Shown: piece by piece, positions 14,491-58,272 of the stretch
Position numbering within the stretch: the first letter of the stretch is position 1
Layout of the letters: each line of letters begins with the position of its first letter
DNA from: Bacteroidia bacterium
Lineage (GTDB): Bacteria > Bacteroidota > Bacteroidia > Flavobacteriales > Flavobacteriaceae
Length of the DNA: 64,000 bases
Reading direction: 5' to 3'
Assembly (NCBI GenBank): GCA_030425285.1
Contig: JAUIAY010000004.1
Coordinates: forward strand, 1-64,000
Translations under genes and position numbers: made by a program
The notes under the pieces: model-generated
What the model was told of the DNA's origin: nothing
What the model saw: the letters and a program-made list of their open reading frames with translations, nothing else
The model's database searches: none

Positions 14491-14507
14491 GGCAGTTACT
14501 ATGCCAA
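14491..14507 (-). promoter_or_regulatory. Sigma-54 promoter of osmC
   Basis: Minus-strand TTGGCATAGTAACTGCC has GG (14505-14504) and GC (14493-14492) exactly 10 bases apart, as in TGGCAC-N5-TTGC. Transcription would start near 14480, giving a leader of about 35 bases before the preferred ATG. Confidence 0.72.
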
Positions 14508-14572
14508 ACTTTGCAAATAATTGATAATCAAATGTTTATATAGTATTTTATTGTGTTGATGTATGACGACAT

Positions 14573-14623
14573 TTCGTTTTTTAACGAATTATCGTGAATT
14601 TATTTCCGAGATTTCGTGAATTT
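14573..14623. promoter_or_regulatory. Candidate enhancer (UAS) for the sigma-54 activator
   Basis: The dyad TTCGTT-TTTT-AACGAA (14573-14588) is centred 100 bp upstream of the predicted osmC start. Two direct copies of TCGTGAATTT follow at 14592-14601 and 14614-14623 (22 bp apart, about two helical turns). Spacing and symmetry suit a Fis-type HTH. Confidence 0.5.
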
Positions 14624-14631
14624 TGGGATGT

Positions 14632-28479: not shown

Positions 28480-30579
28480 ATGAAAGTATTATTAAAGTAC
28501 ACATTAAGTTTATCAATTATCATGTTAGCCATTTTAGGTTGCGCATCAGATGATGATAATACAGATTATGTAAATCAAATTAAAGCACCGGCCAATGTTT
28601 CTTTAGAAACAAGGGTTACACAAGATAATACAGGTTTGGTAACTTTGATACCTTTAGGAGAAGGGGTTACTAAATTTGTAATTGGATTTGGAGACGGTTC
28701 AGAACCTTCCGAAGATATACTTCCCGGTGGAAGGGTTAATCATACGTACGAAGAAGGCTCTTATGAAGTCGTACTGACAGCTTACGGATTAAATGGATTG
28801 ACAACAACAATTGTACAGCCTTTGATGGTTTCCTTTCAAGCTCCCCAAAATTTAGAAGTTATTATTGAAAATGATGGAACACTGTCTAAAACGGTAAATG
28901 TTATTGCAACGGCAGATTTCGCTATGTTTTACGAAGTGGATTTTGGCGAAGATCCTTCAATTGATCCATCATCAGCTAATATTGGAGATACTGTTTCATA
29001 CACCTACCAAGAAGCTGGAATATATACTATAACAGTTACTGCCATGGGAGCAGCTATTGAAACAACAACCTATACAGAAGATTTTGAAGTAACTGCTATT
29101 GTTCAGCCTTTAGCTTCTGCTCCAACACCGCCTGCAAGGGCAGACGAGGATGTCATATCCATTTTTAGCAGTGTTTATACAGATGAACCCAGTACAAACT
29201 ATTTCCCAGACTGGGGACAAGGAGGTTGCTGTGGAAGTGGATGGACGATGTTCGATTTGGCCGGTGATGAGATGTTGCAATACACGAATTTAAGTTACCA
29301 AGGAAATGAGTTTGGCGCTCCAGTTGATGTTTCCCAAATGGAATATATCCATTTAGATGTTTGGACAGCCGATGTTCTTCAAACTATTGAAGTATCTTTA
29401 ATTAGTGCTTCAAATGGAGAACGACCAGTTGTTGTTGCATTAAACCAAAACGATTGGACAAGTATTGATATTCCTATTTCAGACTATACAGACCAAACAG
29501 GCTTTACTGTAGCTGATATCTTTCAGTTAAAGTATGTTGGAGACCCATTTGGTGGAGGCGGAACAGCTTTTATTGATAACATTTATTTTTATAGATCACC
29601 TTCTACACCAACATCAATTGTAGGTTCGTGGGTATTGGCACCGGAAGCGGGTGCTTTGGGAGTAGGTCCAGCACCAGGAGATACAAGCTGGTGGAGTTGT
29701 GATGACGTTTGTGTAGGTGATAGAGCTTGCTATTATGATGACCAATTTGTTTTTAATACTGATGGCAGTTTTAATAATATCTTGGGTTCAGAGTCTTGGA
29801 TTGAAGGTTGGCAAGGTGGCAGTGATTCCTGTGGCACTCCAGTTGCACCTCATGATGGATCAAATGCTGCAACTTATATCTATGATGAAGGAGCTGGAAC
29901 GCTTACTCTGAATGGTGTAGGTGCCTATGTAGGAGTACCTAAAGCTGTAAATACAGGAGAATTGACCAATCCTGCAGATGCGCCAGCTTCTGTGACGTAT
30001 AATATAACTTTTGTAGATGCCAACACCATGGAAGTATCTATTGAAGCCGGTTCAGGTGTTTTCTGGCAATATAAACTTATTAGAGATGGCGCTCCAGTTA
30101 CACCTCTAACAGGAACATGGCAAATAGCTCCTGAAGCCGGAGCCTTGGGAGTAGGCCCAGCACCAGGTGATACAAGCTGGTGGAACTGTGATGCAACATG
30201 TGTAGGTGATAGAGCTTGCTATTATGATGACCAATTTGTTTTTAATACTGATGGTAGTTTTAATAATATTTTGGGTTCAGAGACTTGGATCGAAGGTTGG
30301 CAAGGAGGTAGCGATTCCTGCGGTGCTCCAATAGCGCCTCATGATGGATCCAATGCTGCAACCTACACTTATGATGAAGGCGCCGGAACGTTTACACTAA
30401 ACGGTGTAGGAGCCTACGTAGGAGTGCCTAAAGCTGTAAATACAGGAGAATTGACAAGCCCTACTGATGCACCAGCTTCAGTGACATATAATGTAACTTT
30501 TATAGATGCCAATACCATGGAAGTATCTATTGAAGCGGGTTCAGGTGTATTCTGGCAGTATAAACTCATAAAAATTTAA
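28480..30579 (+). CDS. PKD-containing surface glycan-binding lipoprotein with duplicated C-terminal domain
   Basis: 699 residues. Lipoprotein signal to LAILGC followed by ASDDD. Two PKD-like beta domains (about 30-215) include FGDGSEPSEDI and VDFGEDPSI. A jelly-roll-like module follows (about 225-375; DWGQGGCCGSGW). Two near-identical domains of about 151 residues (about 384-534 and 547-697) end the protein. Each carries a W-W-x-C motif, DRACYYDDQFVFN, and NTDGSFNNILGSE. The operon position right after SusD is where surface glycan-binding proteins sit, so it probably holds beta-glucan on the cell surface. The domain also appears, diverged, in the next gene. Confidence 0.84.
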   Translation: MKVLLKYTLSLSIIMLAILGCASDDDNTDYVNQIKAPANVSLETRVTQDNTGLVTLIPLGEGVTKFVIGFGDGSEPSEDILPGGRVNHTYEEGSYEVVLTAYGLNGLTTTIVQPLMVSFQAPQNLEVIIENDGTLSKTVNVIATADFAMFYEVDFGEDPSIDPSSANIGDTVSYTYQEAGIYTITVTAMGAAIETTTYTEDFEVTAIVQPLASAPTPPARADEDVISIFSSVYTDEPSTNYFPDWGQGGCCGSGWTMFDLAGDEMLQYTNLSYQGNEFGAPVDVSQMEYIHLDVWTADVLQTIEVSLISASNGERPVVVALNQNDWTSIDIPISDYTDQTGFTVADIFQLKYVGDPFGGGGTAFIDNIYFYRSPSTPTSIVGSWVLAPEAGALGVGPAPGDTSWWSCDDVCVGDRACYYDDQFVFNTDGSFNNILGSESWIEGWQGGSDSCGTPVAPHDGSNAATYIYDEGAGTLTLNGVGAYVGVPKAVNTGELTNPADAPASVTYNITFVDANTMEVSIEAGSGVFWQYKLIRDGAPVTPLTGTWQIAPEAGALGVGPAPGDTSWWNCDATCVGDRACYYDDQFVFNTDGSFNNILGSETWIEGWQGGSDSCGAPIAPHDGSNAATYTYDEGAGTFTLNGVGAYVGVPKAVNTGELTSPTDAPASVTYNVTFIDANTMEVSIEAGSGVFWQYKLIKI
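29629..30081 (+). repeat. First copy of a 489-bp in-frame tandem duplication
   Basis: Starts at codon TGG 29629 (WVLAPEAG) and ends at the codon series for YKLI. It is repeated almost base for base 489 bp (163 codons) later. The two copies differ mainly at third codon positions. Confidence 0.85.
30118..30570 (+). repeat. Second copy of the 489-bp tandem duplication
   Basis: Starts at TGG 30118 (WQIAPEAG). Very high similarity to 29629-30081 including the motif DRACYYDDQFVFN. It marks a recent duplication that could expand or contract by recombination. Confidence 0.85.
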
Positions 30580-30590
30580 TATAGAAAAAG

Positions 30591-32216
30591 ATGAAAAAAC
30601 TAATATATATATTTACTTCTTTAGTAGCTGTAGCTTTTGTGATAACGGCATGTCAGGATGATGATGCAAGTTTTGGAGATGTTATTGCTCCTTCTAATAT
30701 TGTTGTAACGACAGAAATAGTAGGTCAGGATTCTGCAAACCCTTATGGAGATGGTAGCGGAGTTGTGAACTTTACAGCAATAGCTGATAATGCTATCAAT
30801 TATAAGTTTGTTTATAACAGTGCGGAAGTAAGTTCTCCAATTGGAGAAGCTTCCATGAACTTTTCCAATTTAGGTGTTAACACTTATGATGTTGTAGTCA
30901 TTGCCTATGGTACTGGAGGTACATCAAGTTCAACAGTTGTTTCAGTTGAGGTTTTGGCAACCTATTCGCCACCACAGGATTTATTGGATATTTTGGTAGG
31001 TGATGGCTCTAAAGTTTGGAGACTTAAATCTGAACAAGCCGGACATTTTGGTTTAGGCCCAGTAGGTGGGCAAATCCCTAGTGAATGGTACGGTGCAGGC
31101 CCTGAAGAAAAAGCAGGTGTCGGTATGTATGATGACCGTTTTATTTTTAATGAAGATGGGACATTTACATACATCACTAACAATACTAATGATGATGTTA
31201 CTGAAGACCCTTCGGGAACTGTTTTTGGAAGAGACGGACTTATTAACGAATTGGGTTCTGGATCAGGAACTGTTAATGGTGCTGATGTTGAAAACTTCCC
31301 TTATAATGATTATTCCGAATCATGGGTGTTAATTGCACCTGGTGGTCAAGAAACAATTAGTTTAACAGGCTTGGCTTTTATTAGCTATTACTGTGGTGGA
31401 TCTCATAATTATCAAATTTTTGATAGATCCGTTCCTAACGAGCTATTATTAAAAACTACAGATGGTAACAATGAATTTGACTGGTGGTTCATAATCACTT
31501 CAGAGGAGCCAGGCGGTAACTCATTTACCTCACAGTATAACAATTTGGTTTGGGAAGATGATTTCAACACCAATGGTGCTCCCGATGCTGGAAACTGGAC
31601 TTATGATTTAGGTGCAGGAGGCTGGGGAAATCAAGAACTGCAAACCTATACCGATAATGCAGAAAATGTAATAGTAGAAGATGGATTCTTAAAAATAACC
31701 GCTAAAGCAGATGGAACTAGCTATACTTCCGCCAGACTTAAATCTGAAGGGCTTTATGATTTTACATTCGGACGAGTAGAGGTAAGAGCTAAATTACCAG
31801 TGTCAATTGGAACTTGGCCTGCAATTTGGATGTTGGGTTCTGACTATCAGACAAACACTTGGCCAGCCTGTGGTGAAATCGATATCATGGAACAAACAGG
31901 ACAGGATAAAAATGTTGTTTTAGGAACAGTACATCATCCTGGCGTTTCTCCTGGTGCAGGGGACTCATCAAGTATTAGTGTACCAACATCTACAACCGAA
32001 TTCCATAATTACACAGTTGAATGGACTCCAGATGAAATAATTTTCTTGGTTGACGATACTGTTTTTCATACAGTTGCCAATACTTCAGACTTACCTTTTG
32101 ATAGTGATTTCTTTATAATATTGAACATTGCTATGGGTGGTACGTTAGGTGGGGATGTGGATCCAGCTTTTACGGAAGATACTATGGAAATTGATTACGT
32201 GAGAGTTTATCAATAA
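30591..32216 (+). CDS. GH16 endo-beta-1,3-glucanase (laminarinase-like) lipoprotein with N-terminal binding region
   Basis: 541 residues. Lipoprotein signal to VITACQDDD. A PKD-like domain is at about 35-125. The next region (about 140-300; KVWRLKSEQAG, GPVGGQIPSEWY, YDDRFIFNEDGTF) resembles the duplicated domain of the preceding protein. The GH16 catalytic domain (about 315-541) has the nucleophile/acid motif GEIDIME (Glu near 429 and 434) in WPACGEIDIMEQTG. It cuts internal beta-1,3 bonds of laminarin at the surface. The operon gap is 11 bp in front and 9 bp behind. Confidence 0.93.
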   Translation: MKKLIYIFTSLVAVAFVITACQDDDASFGDVIAPSNIVVTTEIVGQDSANPYGDGSGVVNFTAIADNAINYKFVYNSAEVSSPIGEASMNFSNLGVNTYDVVVIAYGTGGTSSSTVVSVEVLATYSPPQDLLDILVGDGSKVWRLKSEQAGHFGLGPVGGQIPSEWYGAGPEEKAGVGMYDDRFIFNEDGTFTYITNNTNDDVTEDPSGTVFGRDGLINELGSGSGTVNGADVENFPYNDYSESWVLIAPGGQETISLTGLAFISYYCGGSHNYQIFDRSVPNELLLKTTDGNNEFDWWFIITSEEPGGNSFTSQYNNLVWEDDFNTNGAPDAGNWTYDLGAGGWGNQELQTYTDNAENVIVEDGFLKITAKADGTSYTSARLKSEGLYDFTFGRVEVRAKLPVSIGTWPAIWMLGSDYQTNTWPACGEIDIMEQTGQDKNVVLGTVHHPGVSPGAGDSSSISVPTSTTEFHNYTVEWTPDEIIFLVDDTVFHTVANTSDLPFDSDFFIILNIAMGGTLGGDVDPAFTEDTMEIDYVRVYQ

Positions 32217-32225
32217 AAGTGATTT

Positions 32226-34532
32226 ATGAAGATAAACGTATTTAATATAGTAACATTTTTTTCTATTGGTTTATTCATTTTGTCATGTAAAAACAATCAT
32301 GATAATGATTTGGCTATAATTGAGGAATCGTCAGTTAATAGTGCTTCTGAAATAGAGTCTAAAGTCAATAAACTCTTGAGTGAAATGACACTTGAAGAAA
32401 AAATAGGCCAAATGAACCAATATACAGGTTTTTGGGATGTGACAGGGCCAACACCTACGGAAGGTAATCAGGCATTAAAATATGAGCATCTTAAAAAGGG
32501 ATTGGTAGGTTCAATGATTAATGTTACAGGAACAGAAAATGTAAGAGCTATTCAAAAAATAGCTGTTGAAGAAACAAGACTTGGAATTCCGTTAATTATC
32601 GGTTTTGATGTTGTTCATGGTTTTAAGACTTTGAGCCCAATTCCATTGGCTGAATCAGCTAGTTGGGATATGGAAGCCATAGAATTATCTGCCAAAGTAG
32701 CGGCAAAAGAAGCGGCTGCTTCTGGTATTAATTGGACATTTGCACCTATGGTTGATATCTCTCGCGATGCTCGCTGGGGGCGTGTAATGGAAGGAGCTGG
32801 AGAAGACCCTTATTTAGGCTCTAAAATAGCTTATGCACGAGTAAAAGGTTTTCAAGGTGATGATTTGACATCAAAAGAAACAATTGCAGCTTGTGCAAAA
32901 CATTTTGCAGCCTATGGTTTTGCCGAATCAGGAAAAGATTATAATACAGTAGACATTGGGACTTCAACATTGTACAATGTTATTTTTCCACCTTTTATAG
33001 CAGCCAAAAATGCAGGTGTTAGAACTTTTATGAATTCATTTAATGAAATTAACGGCGTACCTGCAACGGGTAGTGCGTTTTTGCAACGTGATATTCTTAA
33101 AAATCAGTGGGATTTTGACGGATTTGTTGTTTCTGATTGGGGTTCTATAACTGAAATGATTGCCCATAGACAGGCAAAGGATGGAACCCAAGCGGCTGAA
33201 ATAGCAGCAAATGCAGGTTCTGATATGGATATGGAATCTCATTTATACGTTGCTGAATTGGCAAATTTAGTACAAGAAGGTAAGGTTAAAGAATCACTTA
33301 TAGACGATGCTGTTAGACGCATATTGCGCGTTAAGTTTGAGTTGGGACTTTTTGAAGATCCTTATAAATATTGTGATGAAGCCTATGAGAAAGACGTTGT
33401 TGGAAGCAAAGAAATACATGATGCCGTATTGGATGTTGCTAAAAAGTCTATTGTGCTTTTAAAAAATGAAAACGGTTTATTGCCATTAAAAAAAGAAGGA
33501 CAAAAAATAGCACTAATTGGTGCATTGGCCAATGATAAAACAAGCCCTTTGGGAAATTGGCGTATTGGAGCAGATGATGAAACAGCTGTTTCGGTTTTAG
33601 AAGGTATGCAAAACTATCAAGGCAATACACTTTTCTTTGAAAAGGGAGCTGATTTTGTAACAGGGCAAACAGTTTTTGCACGGGAATTGGATATTAATAC
33701 AACTGATAAAAGCGGGTTCAATAAAGCCATAGCTGCTGCAACAAAAGCTGATATTGTAGTGATGGTTTTAGGCGAACATGGCTATCAGTCAGGAGAAGGT
33801 AGGAGTCGTTCTGAATTAGGCTTGCCAGGTGTGCAACAGGAATTATTGGAAGCAGTTTATAAAGCAAACCCTAATATTGTTTTAGTACTTAATAACGGAC
33901 GTCCTTTGGCCATTACTTGGGCAGATGAACATATCCCTGCTATTGTTGAAGCGTGGCAATTGGGAACTCAGTCAGGTAATGCTATAGCTCAAGTTTTATA
34001 TGGTGATTACAACCCTAGCGGAAAATTACCTATGACTTTTCCCCGTAGTGTGGGACAAGTTCCTATTTACTACAATACAAAAAGTACGGGAAGACCTAAT
34101 ATTCCATCACCTGGTGAAGTGTTTTGGTCACATTATACAGACATTAGTAATGCGCCATTATATGCTTTTGGGCATGGCTTGAGTTATACAACTTTTAGTT
34201 ATAGCAACCTTAAGGTAAATAAGGTATCACAAGATAAAATTGAAGTGTCAGTTAGTTTAACAAACACTGGTACGGTAAAAGGTAAAGAAGTAGCACAGCT
34301 ATATTTAAGAGATGATTATGCGAGTGTTACTAGACCCGTAAAAGAATTAAAGGGCTTTGAGTTAGTCGAGCTTAACCCTAACGAATCGAAAACAATAACA
34401 TTCTTATTGACAGAAAAGGAGTTAGGGTTTTATAACAATCAAGGAGAATTTGTGGTTGAACCAGGAGATTTCACTGTTTTTGTTGGTGGAAGTTCTCTGG
34501 CTGAACTTGAAGCTAAATTTGAACTAGAATAA
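32226..34532 (+). CDS. GH3 beta-glucosidase (BglX-like)
   Basis: 768 residues with a lipoprotein-like signal (FFSIGLFILSC). The GH3 N-terminal barrel has the nucleophile Asp in FVVSDWGS (about residue 303). The second domain has LGEHGYQSGEGRSRSELG with the acid/base region, and a fibronectin III-like C-terminal domain completes it (VSVSLTNTGTVKGKEVAQLY). It removes glucose from the non-reducing end of oligosaccharides released by the two GH16 enzymes. Its stop overlaps the next ATG by one base (TAATG). Confidence 0.94.
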   Translation: MKINVFNIVTFFSIGLFILSCKNNHDNDLAIIEESSVNSASEIESKVNKLLSEMTLEEKIGQMNQYTGFWDVTGPTPTEGNQALKYEHLKKGLVGSMINVTGTENVRAIQKIAVEETRLGIPLIIGFDVVHGFKTLSPIPLAESASWDMEAIELSAKVAAKEAAASGINWTFAPMVDISRDARWGRVMEGAGEDPYLGSKIAYARVKGFQGDDLTSKETIAACAKHFAAYGFAESGKDYNTVDIGTSTLYNVIFPPFIAAKNAGVRTFMNSFNEINGVPATGSAFLQRDILKNQWDFDGFVVSDWGSITEMIAHRQAKDGTQAAEIAANAGSDMDMESHLYVAELANLVQEGKVKESLIDDAVRRILRVKFELGLFEDPYKYCDEAYEKDVVGSKEIHDAVLDVAKKSIVLLKNENGLLPLKKEGQKIALIGALANDKTSPLGNWRIGADDETAVSVLEGMQNYQGNTLFFEKGADFVTGQTVFARELDINTTDKSGFNKAIAAATKADIVVMVLGEHGYQSGEGRSRSELGLPGVQQELLEAVYKANPNIVLVLNNGRPLAITWADEHIPAIVEAWQLGTQSGNAIAQVLYGDYNPSGKLPMTFPRSVGQVPIYYNTKSTGRPNIPSPGEVFWSHYTDISNAPLYAFGHGLSYTTFSYSNLKVNKVSQDKIEVSVSLTNTGTVKGKEVAQLYLRDDYASVTRPVKELKGFELVELNPNESKTITFLLTEKELGFYNNQGEFVVEPGDFTVFVGGSSLAELEAKFELE

Positions 34533-46547: not shown

Positions 46548-46674
46548 ATAGGTTGTTTTGTTTCAGTTCTAAAGGTAGTCTTTTTGTTGATAACAATGTA
46601 AGGGGTTTTGGTTATTGTTGATGGAGGAAGACTGAAGGAGGAAGACAGGTGATAGGAGACGGAAGACGGAAGAT

Positions 46675-46779
46675 GGTCAATCACAACTTTGCGGTGGTCA
46701 ATCACAACTTTGTACTACTCAATCAAAAGTCTGGAACGGTTAATCAAAAGTCTGGAATGGTTAATAAAGAAACTAGAAG
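46675..46779. repeat. 21-bp degenerate minisatellite, about five units
   Basis: Units begin GGTCAATCACAACTTTG (twice), TCAATCAAAAGTCTGGAA (twice) and GTTAATAAAGAAACTAGAAG. The 21-bp period equals seven codons, so units stay in frame on the plus strand. The unit sequence drifts from left to right. Confidence 0.7.
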
Positions 46780-46784
46780 GAGTA

Positions 46785-46813
46785 GCCGTAATTGCGGTTA
46801 TACATTGTTGGAG
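46785..46813. repeat. attC-like half element, downstream of gene 46822-48012
   Basis: The 27 bases from 46785 to 46811 are identical to 49257-49283 in the full element. It contains the arm GTAATTGCGGTTATAC and the core-like GTTGGAG (46807-46813). The gene's stop lies 8 bp away. The other half of the palindrome is missing. Confidence 0.55.
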
Positions 46814-46821
46814 CTAGTTTT

Positions 46822-48012
46822 TTATTCAAAATACTCAATTTTTCTTGTCCAAATAAATAGTTTTTTTCCATTGACACTTTTGGTTTGTTTAATCCAATTA
46901 TTTTTTTCGTCAAATTCGTGTTCAAAGTCTACTTCAGTTCGACTTACTTTTTCTGTGTAAACCAGCTTTATTGGTAAGTCGTGATTACTATATGAGTATT
47001 CTAATGTTCGATTGTTATCAGGATATTTTGGGTTACCCACAGATTCCCTTACTTTTCTTCCATTTTCATCATATTCATATTTTCTGTAGTAGTTGATCGA
47101 GTCATTTTTATCATAAGAAAGATTTTCAATTAGTAAGCTATTGTCATATTTTCTAATTTCTTTTCCGCTATAGTATGATTCATTACTAACATCATTATAC
47201 TGAGAATAAAAATGAGTTTTAATGATTCTATCTTTTTCATCATAAAAAAACTCTTTGCTTATGTAATCTGTTCCGTTATTAGTCCTTTTTTGTCTTCTTC
47301 CCCTTCTTGTTTTTACCCAAATAAAAGGTGAGTGATTTATGATTTTCGCTTTCCTGCCTTTTGCATCATACTCGTAAAGAGTTCCGTAATCAGCTCCATA
47401 TTCATCGAAATTTCTAACTTCAATTAGATTGCCAATCGAATCATAATATTTTTCTGTTCTTCTAATTTCTTTAGGGTAATCAGAGTTGAAGTATTCAAAA
47501 TCTGAAACTAAATTCTTTTTGTTGTATTTATATTTTTCAGTAGAGTAACTATTATCAGCACTTATGGTTTTAACATAAATCAAATTATTATTTATATCGT
47601 AAATATAACTTGAATTGGACTCTTGATACGAAATGTATTTACGATTTTTGACTTTGCCAAAGCTGTTATATTCGTATTCGTTATAATTTACAGTATCTTG
47701 ATTTTTATAAAACCAAACTTCTTTTAAAAGTCTATCATTTTTGTCAAATTCTTTATAATAATTTACATAATGAACCCAATAAGTGTCATACCACCAAATT
47801 TTAAAACGACTTTTGGTAAATTCAGCACTCGAAAATCCATAATGACCATAGTCGCCCTCTGTACTAAATAGTTTTCTGTTCTGAATGCTGTCATTTACAA
47901 ACTTTAGTTCTTCTCTTATGGATTTTACTTTTCCATAAATAGTATCTTTTTCTTGAGCATTGGAAAATGAAAAGAAGAATAACAGAATTACAATTAGGTT
48001 GGTTTTATACAT
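46822..48012 (-). CDS. Secreted YD-repeat-like protein (cassette-like gene)
   Basis: 396 residues: signal peptide (YKTNLIVILLFFFSFSNA), then many short repeats of the form Y-x-Y-D-x-x-G/N-x (IYDINNNLI, YEYDAKGRKAKI, FFYDEKDRIIK, KYEYDENGRKVRES), which is the pattern of RHS/YD-type repeats. It is too short for a full RHS toxin shell and has no obvious C-terminal toxin domain, ending in IWTRKIEYFE. Flanked by attC-like elements, with the stop 8 bp from the element core. Function unknown; it may be a periplasmic or surface beta protein. Confidence 0.72.
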   Translation of the reverse strand: MYKTNLIVILLFFFSFSNAQEKDTIYGKVKSIREELKFVNDSIQNRKLFSTEGDYGHYGFSSAEFTKSRFKIWWYDTYWVHYVNYYKEFDKNDRLLKEVWFYKNQDTVNYNEYEYNSFGKVKNRKYISYQESNSSYIYDINNNLIYVKTISADNSYSTEKYKYNKKNLVSDFEYFNSDYPKEIRRTEKYYDSIGNLIEVRNFDEYGADYGTLYEYDAKGRKAKIINHSPFIWVKTRRGRRQKRTNNGTDYISKEFFYDEKDRIIKTHFYSQYNDVSNESYYSGKEIRKYDNSLLIENLSYDKNDSINYYRKYEYDENGRKVRESVGNPKYPDNNRTLEYSYSNHDLPIKLVYTEKVSRTEVDFEHEFDEKNNWIKQTKSVNGKKLFIWTRKIEYFE

Positions 48013-48116
48013 ATTTTTTTTCGCTAATCTATTCGGTTTAAATTCAGCTCAAAAGTCAAAATAAGTAAATGATTTCTATTGGTTAGTAATTCAGTTAGTT
48101 GGTTTAGGGAAATGTG

Positions 48117-48241
48117 TTACAACGGTCTGTGTATGGTTTCGTTGCGGGAAATCCGCGAGGATTTTGCTTCGCCAGTTCGCACTTTGTGCTCGTGTCAGAA
48201 GTAGGCGAGAACAGCGCCATTACTTATAGCCATTGTTAGGC
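48117..48241. repeat. attC-like element between two cassette-like genes
   Basis: A core GTTAGGC (48235-48241) lies 8 bp from the stop of the gene at 48250. The opposite core is the degenerate TTACAAC (48117-48123). Arms CAACGG and CCATTGTT pair with a wobble, and the centre holds a small GCACTTTGTGC hairpin and GGCGA/TCGCC arms. It shows weaker symmetry than the next element. Confidence 0.5.
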
Positions 48242-48249
48242 AACGTATT

Positions 48250-49146
48250 TTATTCAATTAATTTTTGAGGATAAACTTTTCTGATTTCAGTCATTTCTTC
48301 TTTAGTCAAGCTATCCAATTCTTTGTTATATTTTTCTTTTGCAAGTCGAGTTCTTAATTTTTTGATTTCACCAATGATTGCATTTTGAACATCAATGTAA
48401 GTTTTATACATAGTTTCCCTTTCTGCTTTTAAACTTATTATTGATTCCGATTTATTCTTTTCTTCGTATTTGTTTATTGCAACTTTAAGTTCCTCAATAT
48501 CTACTTTCTTTTTATTTGCAAAAATTTGATTATTACCATCAATGTATATGTTTATAGCTTTACTTAAATCGTATTCGGTATCTTCTTCTTGAATTTCTGG
48601 AAGTTTCCTAATTAATCCATCATCGTTGACATAGGAAATGGTGTCAAATAAGAAAAATACACTCATTTTATAATAGTCAAGCTCAAAGTCCTCGGAATTC
48701 AATACAGTTAAAATTCCTTTTGCTACTGATGAAGGTGAAAAGTTATCTGACTCTTTAAGTGAATCAAATACTTTCTGCAATTCATTACTTTTAATGAACT
48801 CACTTTCTTTCAATTCCGATTGGCATTTAATAAAGGATTCCGATTGTGGCATTCCAATATCAATTATTTTGTCCAAAAATGATTTCGATGGATTATAGTT
48901 AAAATCGTTTTCCTCAACTATTTTCTCAAAAATTGCAACATAGCTTTCGCCACTACTATCTTTTAATATTTTTTCATTTATAAGTAATTGCTCAAATTCA
49001 GTTAGTGCTTTTTTGAATTTCGTTCCATTATCCTCATAATTTTGGTAAATACAATTCATTAATTTGTCTTCAACTCTCAATGTTTGAGAATTGCAGGAAA
49101 TTGTAAAAATTCCAAAAGTCAAATATGTGAATATCAGTTTTTTCAT
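48250..49146 (-). CDS. Lipoprotein with an ExbD-type periplasmic domain (cassette-like gene)
   Basis: 298 residues. Lipoprotein signal (KLIFTYLTFGIFTISC), a helical N-terminal region of unknown type (about 25-175), then a C-terminal region (about 190-298) reading INIYIDGNNQIFANKK, VDIEELKVAINKYEE, IISLKAERETMYKTYIDV, and finally SLTKEEMTEIRKVYPQKLIE. This is the periplasmic domain and tail of flavobacterial ExbD-family proteins. It lacks the ExbD membrane helix and its catalytic Asp, so it cannot itself harvest the proton gradient; it may bind TonB or ExbB partners. The ATG is only 5 bp from an element core (GTTAGGC on the minus strand). Confidence 0.72.
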   Translation of the reverse strand: MKKLIFTYLTFGIFTISCNSQTLRVEDKLMNCIYQNYEDNGTKFKKALTEFEQLLINEKILKDSSGESYVAIFEKIVEENDFNYNPSKSFLDKIIDIGMPQSESFIKCQSELKESEFIKSNELQKVFDSLKESDNFSPSSVAKGILTVLNSEDFELDYYKMSVFFLFDTISYVNDDGLIRKLPEIQEEDTEYDLSKAINIYIDGNNQIFANKKKVDIEELKVAINKYEEKNKSESIISLKAERETMYKTYIDVQNAIIGEIKKLRTRLAKEKYNKELDSLTKEEMTEIRKVYPQKLIE

Positions 49147-49151
49147 ATGTT

Positions 49152-49285
49152 GCCTAACGGTCTCGTATAACCGTCAGTTACGGGTTAAAGTAGGCAAAAT
49201 TTTCGGTTTAGAACTGCCGTTAGCAATTCCGAGTGGATTCGGACGTAGTCGAATCCGCCGTAATTGCGGTTATACATTGTTGGGT
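49152..49285. repeat. Full attC-like element (integron-type recombination site)
   Basis: The outer cores GCCTAAC (49152-49158) and GTTGGGT (49279-49285) fit RYYYAAC/GTTRRRY. GTATAACCG pairs perfectly with CGGTTATAC, then CAGTTACGG pairs with CCGTAATTG with one wobble, leaving one extrahelical T. An unpaired spacer separates cores from arms. A small inner hairpin (GGATTCG/CGAATCC, 49235-49256) lies in the centre. This is the attC arrangement. The orientation agrees with the minus-strand genes: stop 11 bp before, next ATG 5 bp after. Confidence 0.62.
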
Positions 49286-49296
49286 GCAGTTTTTTA

Positions 49297-50418
49297 TTAA
49301 AATGGTAAATCATCTTCTTCACTTGGGTCGTGTCTATCTATTTTGTCAAGTCTTTGCCATAAATTATTTAAAATCACTTTTTGTCTTTCTTTCGATGAGG
49401 AACTTAAGAATTTAGAAAAATCGTAAACTGTATCAACTTTTATTTCTCTATTTTTCCAATACCGAAAATTACCTTTGATAAAACATCTCGCAAGTCGGTT
49501 TTGATTTTGAATGTTGTCTTCTAAAATTGAATTTCTATGAACTTCTTGAATTTCTCTTATAATATTCGAAATGTCTGTAATGTATTCTGCATCAACATCA
49601 ATGTTACTGAATATACTCTCTAAACCATCAGCAAAATTTTGGTATGTTGATTTTTCCTCCTTTGAAAATGAAATTTCGCTTGTCAATTCGGAAATCATTT
49701 TTCTATTTAGGTCAAAAAATGATGAAACTCGATTGTCATAATCCATTACAACCATATTTTTCAAAAGGTCTTTATACCGAAAGTTTTGAAAATCATTTTC
49801 AACGATTATTTCTTCGAACATTTTTCCAATAAAATATAATTCTGTTTTAAAATCATATTTTTTTTCTTCAAAATCATTTGGTGGTGTGTATCTCCAATTT
49901 AAGGAAATGCTCTTATCAAAGTCCGACTCAAAATCTATTTTTTTGCTAAAGCCAAAATCTATAATTTTGACTATACCTTCGTTAGAAATCAGAATGTTAT
50001 CAGGTCGTATGTCTCTGTGTAGAATATTTGAATTTTCTAAATGAACAAAACCGTTTATTGTTTGTCTAAAAATGTCATTTAATTTGTCAGGGTTTTCTTT
50101 TAAAAAGTCAGTTATGTTTTTGCCTTTTATAAATTCCATTAATATATATCCTGTATGTTCTTCTGGATATAAATAGTAATTGAAAACTCTAACAATATTT
50201 TTATGATTTAAAAGATGAAGTAATTTGATTTCATCTTTGAAGTTGTTGAAGAAAATTTTTTGATGCTCTTCGTAGTATGGTGAATACTTTTTGCAAACAA
50301 ATCGCTCATTAATTATTTCATCTTCAAGAAGTACGGTTCTCCCAGTTCCACCTTGACCTATTTCTTCTATGAATTTAAAGTCTTTACTTCTTATAAACTG
50401 AATAATTTTTCCTTTCAT
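49297..50418 (-). CDS. Eukaryote-type Ser/Thr protein kinase (cassette-like gene) with SSB-like tail
   Basis: 373 residues. Kinase domain (about 10-265): glycine loop GQGGTGRTVLL, catalytic Lys in FVCKKY, HRD-like LHRDIRPDNIL and DFG in IIDFGFSKK, so all key residues are present. A helical C-terminal extension (about 265-373) follows and ends DPSEEDDLPF, which mirrors the acidic DDxPF tip by which single-stranded-DNA-binding protein recruits partners. It has no membrane helix, unlike classic PknB. It lies between attC-like elements, with the stop 11 bp from the core; its upstream side has a lone core at 50437-50443. Substrate unknown; recruitment to SSB-binding proteins is a guess. Confidence 0.82.
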   Translation of the reverse strand: MKGKIIQFIRSKDFKFIEEIGQGGTGRTVLLEDEIINERFVCKKYSPYYEEHQKIFFNNFKDEIKLLHLLNHKNIVRVFNYYLYPEEHTGYILMEFIKGKNITDFLKENPDKLNDIFRQTINGFVHLENSNILHRDIRPDNILISNEGIVKIIDFGFSKKIDFESDFDKSISLNWRYTPPNDFEEKKYDFKTELYFIGKMFEEIIVENDFQNFRYKDLLKNMVVMDYDNRVSSFFDLNRKMISELTSEISFSKEEKSTYQNFADGLESIFSNIDVDAEYITDISNIIREIQEVHRNSILEDNIQNQNRLARCFIKGNFRYWKNREIKVDTVYDFSKFLSSSSKERQKVILNNLWQRLDKIDRHDPSEEDDLPF

Positions 50419-50436
50419 CGATTTTGTTCAAATTGC

Positions 50437-50443
50437 ACCCAAC
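50437..50443. repeat. Lone attC-like core upstream of the kinase gene
   Basis: ACCCAAC, read as GTTGGGT on the minus strand, 18 bp before the kinase ATG and followed by CGTTATATGTG, similar to an element arm. It marks the probable upstream boundary of the kinase cassette; the rest of the element is decayed. Confidence 0.4.
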
Positions 50444-50664
50444 TCGTTATATGTGTATAAATATATTTCTTTTTGGGGTTATTTTCGGGATAAGAACACT
50501 TTTTTGTTGTTATTGCTTATTGACTGTGAGGTTGCCTAGATTATTAATCAAGTTCAGGATGACAAGCCAAGTGTCCGATTAGCATGACAAGTTTTTGCCA
50601 TTTTGTGATTTAGAAGTAGGGTAGAGCCTGCTTGGTTATGCCAGCGGCAGGGATTGGTGCAGTT

Positions 50665-55986: not shown

Positions 55987-57321
55987 TTAATGTAGCCCTT
56001 TAATTCTTATTATTCTTTGGGCTTTTCGCAATGTTAAATATCCACCAATACCACATAAAAGAGAAGCGACAAAAATTCCTATTTTGGCTTGAAGAATATA
56101 ATCTGAATCTTCAAATGCAAGATCTGTTATAAATAATGACATGGTAAAGCCAATACCTGCAAGCATGGCAGCGCCATAAATTTGCCTCCAATTAACACCT
56201 TCCGGAAGTACTGCCAATTTTAGTTTGATTAAGATTTTAGAAAATCCAACAATGCCAATAAACTTACCTAAAACCAGCCCCAATATCACACCCAGGCTAA
56301 TATTACTACTCAAGTTATCAGAAAAGCTTCCAGAAAAAGTTATACCAGCATTAGCAAGAGCAAATATTGGCATAACCACATAACCTACTAATGGGTGCAT
56401 GCCATGTTCAAGACGTTGAAGCGGTGTCATAGCAGCTTTGGAGTAACGTCTTATTTTATCTAAAATATGCAGCTGGTCAGATGTAATTAGAGACACATTG
56501 TTTGGTGTTGTATTTTCAAATTCATTGGTAAGGTCATTCATTTTCTTTACAAACGACTTATCTTCAATCTTAACATTTGCAGGAATTGTAAGAGCTGCTA
56601 TAACGCCCGCAATTGTAGCGTGAATTCCGGAGAGTAAAAATGCCATCCATAGCCCACCAATACCAACTATTCCGTAAAAAACGGTGCTTCTAATTCCTAA
56701 TATGTTTGCTAATAGGAGTACAGCAAAAAAAGCACCACCAACCAACAGGCTAATTGTAGAAATATCTGAAGTGTAGAAAAAGGCAATAACCATTACTGCC
56801 CCTAAATCATCAACAATAGCCAAAGCCGTTAAGAATACCTTGAGTGATATAGGTACTCTATCACCTAATAAGTAGAGTATTCCTAACGCAAATGCAATAT
56901 CTGTTGCCATTGGAATACCCCAGCCATAAGATGCTTCTCCTGTTGTATTCAATAACCAGTATAGTAATGCTGGTATTATCATACCTCCTAGTGCTGCAAA
57001 AATAGGTAGAATAGCATCTTTGGGTTTTGAAAGTTCACCACCCATTATTTCTCTCTTTAACTCTAAACCGACTACAAAAAAGAAAACCGACATCAATCCA
57101 TCATTTATCCAATGATGTAAGGACTTAGACACAGTAAAATCACTAAAACCTATGGTGAAAGTTTGCTCCCAAAAATGATGATAAGCATCTTTAAGAGGCG
57201 AATTTGCAAGTATCAAAGCTATAATAGCAGATGCAAATAATAGAATTCCACTTGTTGTTGAATTACTTATGAACCGGTTCACTGGAATTAACAAATACTT
57301 GTCTATAGGGTCTAGTCTCAT
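55987..57321 (-). CDS. nhaA: Na+/H+ antiporter NhaA
   Basis: 444 residues with about 12 membrane helices. The functional Asp pair is in AIVDDLGAVMVIAFF, the signature in VVGLELKREIMGG. It exchanges Na+ (or Li+) for H+ to control salt and pH, common in marine bacteria. The N-terminal stretch DPIDKYLLIPVNRF is typical of the flavobacterial form. No promoter was recognised. Confidence 0.95.
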   Translation of the reverse strand: MRLDPIDKYLLIPVNRFISNSTTSGILLFASAIIALILANSPLKDAYHHFWEQTFTIGFSDFTVSKSLHHWINDGLMSVFFFVVGLELKREIMGGELSKPKDAILPIFAALGGMIIPALLYWLLNTTGEASYGWGIPMATDIAFALGILYLLGDRVPISLKVFLTALAIVDDLGAVMVIAFFYTSDISTISLLVGGAFFAVLLLANILGIRSTVFYGIVGIGGLWMAFLLSGIHATIAGVIAALTIPANVKIEDKSFVKKMNDLTNEFENTTPNNVSLITSDQLHILDKIRRYSKAAMTPLQRLEHGMHPLVGYVVMPIFALANAGITFSGSFSDNLSSNISLGVILGLVLGKFIGIVGFSKILIKLKLAVLPEGVNWRQIYGAAMLAGIGFTMSLFITDLAFEDSDYILQAKIGIFVASLLCGIGGYLTLRKAQRIIRIKGLH

Positions 57322-57390
57322 TAAGGAAGGTTTTATGATATACTGTTTAATTGCATTAAGTCAGGATTGTCCTAATTTCTTCTTTTTATA

Positions 57391-57531
57391 GGGTTTGGTG
57401 TAACCATTAGTTACGGGATTAAAGGTAATGATTTTCGGTTAAGGACTGGTGAAGCAGATAGAACTTGTGAGATTTATGGGTACTTTAGCATTTATAATCT
57501 TACGAATAAATACGGTTGTATAGTGTTGTAA
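57391..57531. repeat. Diverged attC-like element after gene 57540-58160
   Basis: The core-like GTTGTAA (57525-57531) is 8 bp from the gene's stop. The left part repeats AGTTACGGG and TTAAAG from the full element at 49152-49285, and TTTCGGTT then GGACTG align as well. The palindrome is no longer clean, so this is probably a decayed copy. Confidence 0.4.
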
Positions 57532-57539
57532 GTAGTTTT

Positions 57540-58160
57540 TTATTGTCCATATATAGCAGCTAAAACTAATGGAATTGTTATCAAAACAGATATTATTGCT
57601 GGTTTTACCCAACTCCTTTTTCTATGTTGAAATTCCTTTCCGATAAATTTATTCCAGAAGTATTCTGTCAAAATTCCTCCACCTGCAATATTAAAAATCA
57701 AAGCTATATTGCTTCCAATGTTTAATAAGTTCACAACGACAAGAGTAATAATCGTATATAAAATCCCAAAAATCAAAACTTGAATTCTTCCAGTTTGATT
57801 GTTGGTTTGTTTCAGATTATACATTAATAAAACTGTTCCGAAAATAGTTGAGAATATTCCAGAAAAAACCATAATTACTTTTTTAGAATGAAGTTCAGGT
57901 GCATTTGGGTCGTCCGTTATGTTGTTTTTCCTTTCGTCTTGCTCGATAGTTTTTTTACGAGCAATTTCTTTTTTCTCCTTTTCGATTTTGATTTCGGTTT
58001 CAATAAATTCCAATTTAGGTGATTTTCCGTTACGTTCTTTCAGAATATGAATAGAAGCTACAATAGCTTGTTCGTTGTAGTTTTTTTGGTTTTCTAAAAT
58101 GTATTCTAATTCCGAGTCAGTTTTATGTTGGAATTTTTCAATAAATCTATTATCGCTCAT
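57540..58160 (-). CDS. Membrane protein of unknown function (cassette-like gene)
   Basis: 206 residues from the preferred start (MSDNRFIEKFQHKTDSELEY); an earlier Met at 58187 adds nine residues. A charged, helical N-terminal half (about 1-95; KNYNEQAIVASIHILKERNG) is followed by four membrane segments (about 98-120, 130-150, 155-172, 185-205). N-terminal E-L-E-Y-I-L-E is like the small 'tetratrico' helical units, but I recognise no family. It ends 8 bp from a diverged attC-like element, like the genes at 46.8-50.4 kb. Confidence 0.65.
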   Translation of the reverse strand: MSDNRFIEKFQHKTDSELEYILENQKNYNEQAIVASIHILKERNGKSPKLEFIETEIKIEKEKKEIARKKTIEQDERKNNITDDPNAPELHSKKVIMVFSGIFSTIFGTVLLMYNLKQTNNQTGRIQVLIFGILYTIITLVVVNLLNIGSNIALIFNIAGGGILTEYFWNKFIGKEFQHRKRSWVKPAIISVLITIPLVLAAIYGQ

Positions 58161-58272
58161 TATTTGATTTGGTTCGATTTTTATCAAATTACTGCCTATA
58201 TGCGTAATAAATATAGGTCTATATTTCCAAATAAGTTAGCCAGGCAGAAATTTTATTGACCTGCCAGATACT

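Follow-up and report, generated by a model that had tools for sequence, protein, structure and literature searches.

A gene cassette array in a flavobacterium as a very probable platform of an integron-type system with a recombinase outside the IntI family

At positions 46785..50443 of the window (the 64,000-nucleotide stretch of DNA analysed here), three minus-strand genes are flanked by palindromic elements, forming a partly decayed three-gene cassette array. On the strength of sequence comparisons, we consider it very probable that this array serves an integron-type gene-capture system of Bacteroidia as a platform that has no recombinase of its own, with a mechanism in outline as follows. 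The enzyme would be a tyrosine recombinase that is encoded on a different contig and lacks the insertion specific to IntI. It would use attC-like sites as folded bottom strands and exchange them, at G|TT, with either an attI-like site or a second attC, so that gene cassettes are inserted or excised. Other attI copies, the window's among them, may act as further platforms in trans; we hold this idea, and that of a role for wobble pairs (see below), with less confidence than the rest. The original prediction was of a cluster of attC sites without an integrase. The integron-type cassettes, the attC-like sites and the lack of an integrase in view all stand, but the sites are not canonical attC (their cores are rarely GTTRRRY) and the array is not simply orphaned: this genome also encodes a recombinase, though not IntI, next to the same type of attI. 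The integron idea was largely right, but understated.

Cassette 1 (49279..50443, minus strand) starts with GTTGGGTGCA and ends with its reverse complement, and cassette 2 (48235..49158, minus strand) does the same with GTTAGGCAAC; that is, both intact cassettes begin with the exact reverse complement of their own end. Cassette 1 carries a gene for a Ser/Thr-type protein kinase of 373 aa (49297..50418, minus strand; Pfam Pkinase, 114.6 bits), which also matches the PADLOC models mad6 (131 bits) and PD-T4-6 (107 bits) and is a possible anti-phage gene. Cassette 2 carries a gene for a 298-aa protein with an ExbD-like part (48250..49146, minus strand; Pfam ExbD, 38.1 bits). The attC-like site where the two meet (49152..49285, with its bottom strand on the plus strand) is intact, matching the covariance model R1 described below at 92.8 bits (E 1.8e-17), and its bottom strand folds better than its top strand (-23.6 vs -21.2 kcal/mol). 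The next site (48117..48241, plus strand; R1 32.8 bits, E 5e-5) has ill-matching arms and is graded as chimeric or decayed. Since the third gene (46822..48012, minus strand; 396 aa, weak RHS repeat) also lies between two cassette ends that do not match each other, and is followed by only half an attC-like site (46785..46813, plus strand), the array end near 46785 has decayed. Immediately beyond this end, at 46619-46715, there are short direct repeats, TGGTCAATCACAACTTTG and TGATGGAGGAAGAC. An empty-site comparison was sought through the peptidase flanking the array, which was matched in 2/24 relatives at 28% identity. Rfam gave 0 matches in the window at gathering scores.

Most of the anatomy initially described bears recounting. 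The half site is indeed identical to the intact one over 27 bases (46785-46811 vs 49257-49283), stop codons do lie 8, 8 and 11 bp from an element core, one ATG lies 5 bp beyond a core, and the three genes between the elements are all on the minus strand. The proposed boundaries of both full elements were recovered exactly (49152-49285 and 48117-48241) by a model that contains no window sequence. The claim that the cores fit GTTRRRY/RYYYAAC holds for 4/6 window cores, but not for CTCCAAC in the half element or GTTGTAA in the element at 48117-48241. A further lead at 57300-58200 came to only one weak R1 match, a possible decayed attC-like site (57386..57531, plus strand; 13.4 bits, E 0.51).

What had been taken for a core-only element at 50437-50443 is the junction of an attI, not an attC. 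The attI-like site (50441..50493, minus strand) consists of TATCCCG, TATATTTA, ATATAACGAG and then GTT, in the same order as 3' of recombinase genes in relatives. It is preceded by a probable remnant of a recombinase 3' end (50479..50526, minus strand), QSISNNNKKVFLSRK followed by a stop; this is short, and its upstream-only alignment score is 19, where the best of 300 shuffles reached 17. The window array begins at its own attI-like site, and what precedes this site looks like the final ~15 codons of a gene for a recombinase.

In relatives, attI lies just 3' of the recombinase stop codon and includes a TANNTTTR box that resembles a promoter element; at many loci the attI overlaps the final codons of the gene. 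Using the second form of our attI pattern, an anchor was found 3' of the stop in 31/41 loci (10/41 were missed), so that in these loci, as in integrons, an attI beside the recombinase gene forms the start of the array. TATCC stands exactly 50 nt ahead of GTT in 20 of these 31 loci, with 4 more off by one base, and a TANNTT box is found at -22 in 19 of them. This box resembles the flavobacterial -7 promoter element, and may have promoter activity. The first form of the pattern had given anchors in 33/41 loci, with 8/41 missed and three anchors wrong; for the first cassette, a reverse complement of at least 8 bases was found downstream in 24/33 of these anchored loci (10 bases in 16 of the 24). 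The genome that holds the window has five attI-like sites with R1 matches downstream, four of them without a recombinase. Four of the nine pattern matches in this genome have no TATCC box and look like chance.

The model R1 was built from 42 sites at other loci, including one from elsewhere in the same genome, three from a complete chromosome (G014) and none from the window. A few of the sites scored were also used in training (the one from the same genome and the three from G014), and one scored locus (L151) is apparently from the same organism as a training locus (L118). The sites are ~120-135 nt long, and their cores are not the RYYYAAC/GTTRRRY of canonical attC: in the wider family, GTTRRRY fits 12/228 R' boxes and RYYYAAC 13/233 R'' boxes. 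Instead, the core consists of GTTR (223/228) and some six bases complementary to the other end of the same cassette. Chaining by end complementarity gave 118 cassettes with 81 attC at 41 loci; because this set was selected by the very same rule, we retested complementarity on R1 matches. The two ends of one cassette there match at a mean of 5.9/7 positions (at least 6/7 in 75/89), compared to 3.0/7 for the two ends of one site (at least 6/7 in 13/128) and 2.5/7 for shuffled partners. R1 gave 0 matches on eight short IntI loci.

As in integron attC sites, the two arms pair with each other and folding favours the bottom strand. The bottom strand is the more stable in 67/70 attC vs 46/123 control segments, and this better-folding strand is the strand used by integrons; it presumably also folds as a single strand in vivo. 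The arm helix is 92.7% paired, falling to 28-49% on sliding, and its bottom strand shows covariation: 13/16 pairs have changed on both sides. Bottom-strand mismatches in 59 sites are mostly G.T (154, against 13 A.C and 54 others), and one G.T pair is kept in 40/42 sequences. In canonical attC, unpaired bases guide strand choice. The idea that wobbles have replaced the unpaired bases is not clean, since extra bases occur here too, mostly on the L' side as in canonical attC (56, against 20 on the L'' side; a bottom-strand G is the commonest, at 33).

On contig C6 of the same genome, a gene for a tyrosine recombinase of ~403 aa is followed directly by attI and then by two cassettes, one for cation efflux and one AbiU-like. 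The AbiU-like protein (264 bits; L017 11447-13135) is itself a possible anti-phage gene. The recombinase aligns to both halves of the IntI model TIGR02249, but not to positions 181-241, and the IntI-specific insertion region is 20 residues long, compared to 63 in IntI4 (2a3v). This absence of the additional domain is widespread among its relatives: the spacing from KGxKDR to HxLRHS is 57-60 aa in 68/92 recombinases (the other 24 did not fit the motif pattern) and 100 aa in all nine IntI measured (no reading frame was obtained at a tenth IntI locus). Six residues, which we take to be catalytic (R239, K264, H328, R331, H354 and Y363), are invariant in 40 and in 52 recombinase sequences. The best-scoring NCBIfam model is NF040815, "site-specific tyrosine recombinase/integron integrase", which passes its cut-off in 1/4 recombinases scanned, and the closest solved structures by sequence are XerA-type. 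In a tree of these recombinases, IntI and two Xer proteins, IntI forms a long branch whose sister group is not settled. Because two defining features, the IntI domain and the canonical core, were looked for and found missing, the system does not belong to the IntI family as defined; by its sequences, it appears to work like an integron, with this recombinase as the candidate for performing the exchange.

A 282-aa protein encoded directly upstream of the recombinase (L017 8281-9126) has no family match. It occurs in only 3/128 loci compared, itself included, the two others being distant, and is hence not part of the system. A second clade of recombinases (~35% identical; L122, L124, L125, L127, L187 and L193) has a dyad, e.g. 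ATATAGATCATATGATCTATAT, before the first GTT, replacing the ATATAACNAG motif.

Much longer arrays are found in the chromosome G014, which has two of them: 55 sites spanning 59 kb beside its recombinase gene, and 44 sites spanning 41 kb at a second attI that has no such gene next to it. The ~100 bp preceding the two attI are nearly identical, while the sequence beyond is unrelated. Own-end complementarity reaches at least 5/6 in 95/97 of these cassettes, compared to 13/97 for the two ends of one site. There are 28 equal-length pairs of duplicate cassettes at least 97% identical, of which 13 are between the two arrays, ~470 kb apart, and four of the 13 are 100% identical. The shared sequence is bounded at G|TT, with at most 3 further matching bases in 22/28 pairs on each side; beyond the unit, matching continues for 2 bases on the upstream side in 16/28 and for 2 bases on the downstream side in 15/28, and the longest run is 98 upstream and 6 downstream. 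This footprint is the one expected if cassettes are exchanged as units bounded by G|TT, as in integrons. One cassette without an ORF longer than 44 aa (array A, offset 22493, 557 bp, in script coordinates) has 13 copies across both arrays, the printed pairs being 97-100% alike. The longest ORF is forward in 76/97 cassettes; where a forward ORF reaches at least 60 aa (74 cassettes), the stop lies a median of 15 nt before the R'' end, and cassettes have a median of 24 nt ahead of the ORF. No cassettes common to different genomes were found among the 183 compared (>80% coverage), all repeats being within G014, and the window's genome shared none with a congener (G201; recombinase 87% identical) in the stretches compared.

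This gene-capture system looks common in flavobacteria. The recombinase is found at E<=1e-60 in 80/199 family genomes and R1 sites in 55/60, and genomes with the recombinase have more sites (median 31 in 26 genomes vs 10.5 in 34 without, p 4.8e-5; all per-genome counts are lower bounds). However, 29 of the 34 genomes without the recombinase at this threshold still have sites, so another enzyme could act there. The closest named relatives, taken as the best 80 of at least 573 loci, include Bizionia argentinensis, Zunongwangia mangrovi, Mesonia, Winogradskyella, Lutibacter, Algibacter onchidii, Polaribacter vadi, Algoriphagus and Rufibacter, supporting the flavobacterial host first proposed. R1 matches 33 of these best 80 loci; the 104 sites there are all oriented like the recombinase gene, and 100 of them lie downstream of it. 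Chains of at least two cassettes in the same set comprise 41 cassettes in 300,495 bp downstream vs 2 in 674,096 bp upstream. Of the 47 loci without an R1 match, 14 have at least 2 kb downstream; these are mostly distant relatives, but one (L132) is 47% identical. Distant relatives without a match may use other sites or have none.

Could a known system account for the array? It resembles a CALIN, defined as two or more attC within 4 kb without IntI: the window has two attC-like sites 0.9 kb apart and no integrase. However, these sites are not canonical attC, the window array includes an attI, and elsewhere in the genome there is a candidate recombinase that falls outside the usual IntI definition. 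An ordinary CALIN, with canonical attC cassettes left behind by an IntI integrase or served by one in trans, is decidedly unlikely. The anatomy does resemble attC, and IntI1 is reported to have recombined one of two attC of Polaribacter phage P12002L (PMC9892861), a phage that has R1 matches. Yet the IntI-type integrase that had been sought gave partial matches and was over the TIGR02249 cut-off in 0/60 family genomes, and the 105/395 phylum genomes over the cut-off are, in all but one case, from other classes than that of the window; the arrays adjoin a different recombinase with its own attI, and their cores rarely fit GTTRRRY. In the lytic phage itself (L244), there are 7 R1 matches at E<=0.003 (30005-32928 and 14499-14628), the six at 30-33 kb surrounding methyltransferase genes in the opposite orientation to them.

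It is also improbable, though somewhat less so, that a housekeeping Xer or another tyrosine recombinase works the sites while the array-linked recombinase merely travels along. The closeness to XerA-type structures and the many site-bearing genomes without a close copy of the recombinase would suit such an arrangement, whereas the linkage of the recombinase to arrays across many genera, with attI at its 3' end, and the higher site counts where it is present argue against it. Repeats of MITE or REP type, the alternative raised originally, or terminator-like ones, in each case spread through homologous recombination, can be given almost no credence. The elements are palindromic, repeated and intergenic, but the genome has 36 sites at E<=0.01 rather than thousands, their ends are cassette-specific, and the duplicated units include the gene and end at GTT, whereas such repeats would be expected to have a high copy number and to move without a gene.

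The recombinase-linked system that we favour is most like integrons, especially sedentary chromosomal ones: the recombinase gene adjoins attI, the cassette array runs one way and includes gene-less cassettes, the sites have R and L boxes with a bottom strand that folds better, and their sequences point to exchange within GTT. Unlike IntI, the recombinase is without ~42 residues of the insertion and has an N-terminal part of ~100 aa. The cores (GTTR plus ~six cassette-specific bases), the position of attI at the gene's 3' end, the attI copies without recombinase and the frequent bottom-strand G.T wobbles beside unpaired bases also set it apart from integrons. Although XerA, XerC and XerD offer the nearest comparison among Xer proteins, its sequence being closest to XerA-type structures, the recombinase differs in being tied to cassette arrays, with an extra N-terminal part and many palindromic partner sites. 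The IntI insertion is described in PMC8138268 as essential, but not fully conserved in the integron-like subgroup. IntegronFinder 2.0 found very few integrons in Bacteroidetes (PMC9024848): at first there was only In0, and later one complete integron, that of Salinibacter ruber; we also drew on PMC9668308, PMC8352920 and PMC2426708. Among the matches listed in the open-access literature without preprints, we found no description of such a system; subscription papers or preprints could hold one.

In Riemerella anatipestifer, homology is not needed for aph(3')-IVb to enter by transformation, the gene being flanked by 27 bp of 5' and 140 bp of 3' sequence that folds like attC; the section on this gene in PMC13148043 mentions neither a recombinase nor an attI and commits itself to no mechanism. 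These lengths resemble those of the cassettes and sites here (24 nt before the ORF and ~120-135 nt), and a link between this insertion and the present system is a lead that may be worth following. If our reading is true, most of the 60 family genomes sampled (the 55 with sites) carry a gene-capture system probably missed by searches based on the IntI domain. It would then also provide a direct test of why IntI needs its domain, as well as a new attC x attI pair, and would explain gene turnover in marine bacteria, including that of defence genes. We give about even chances to a broader proposal: that this is a separate, overlooked class of integron in Bacteroidia, with arrays of >50 cassettes, in which folded single-stranded attC are exchanged without the IntI domain, conserved G.T wobbles aid strand choice, one enzyme serves several attI platforms copied round the chromosome, and the system may be the missing agent of homology-free gene uptake in Riemerella.

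A Chryseobacterium plasmid (L243, NZ_CP041688.1) encodes a 35%-identical recombinase with 4 R1 matches downstream at E<=0.005. The genes downstream on this plasmid are Crp/Fnr, RidA, metallophosphoesterase and GLPGLI, together with an IS110 element and a group II intron.
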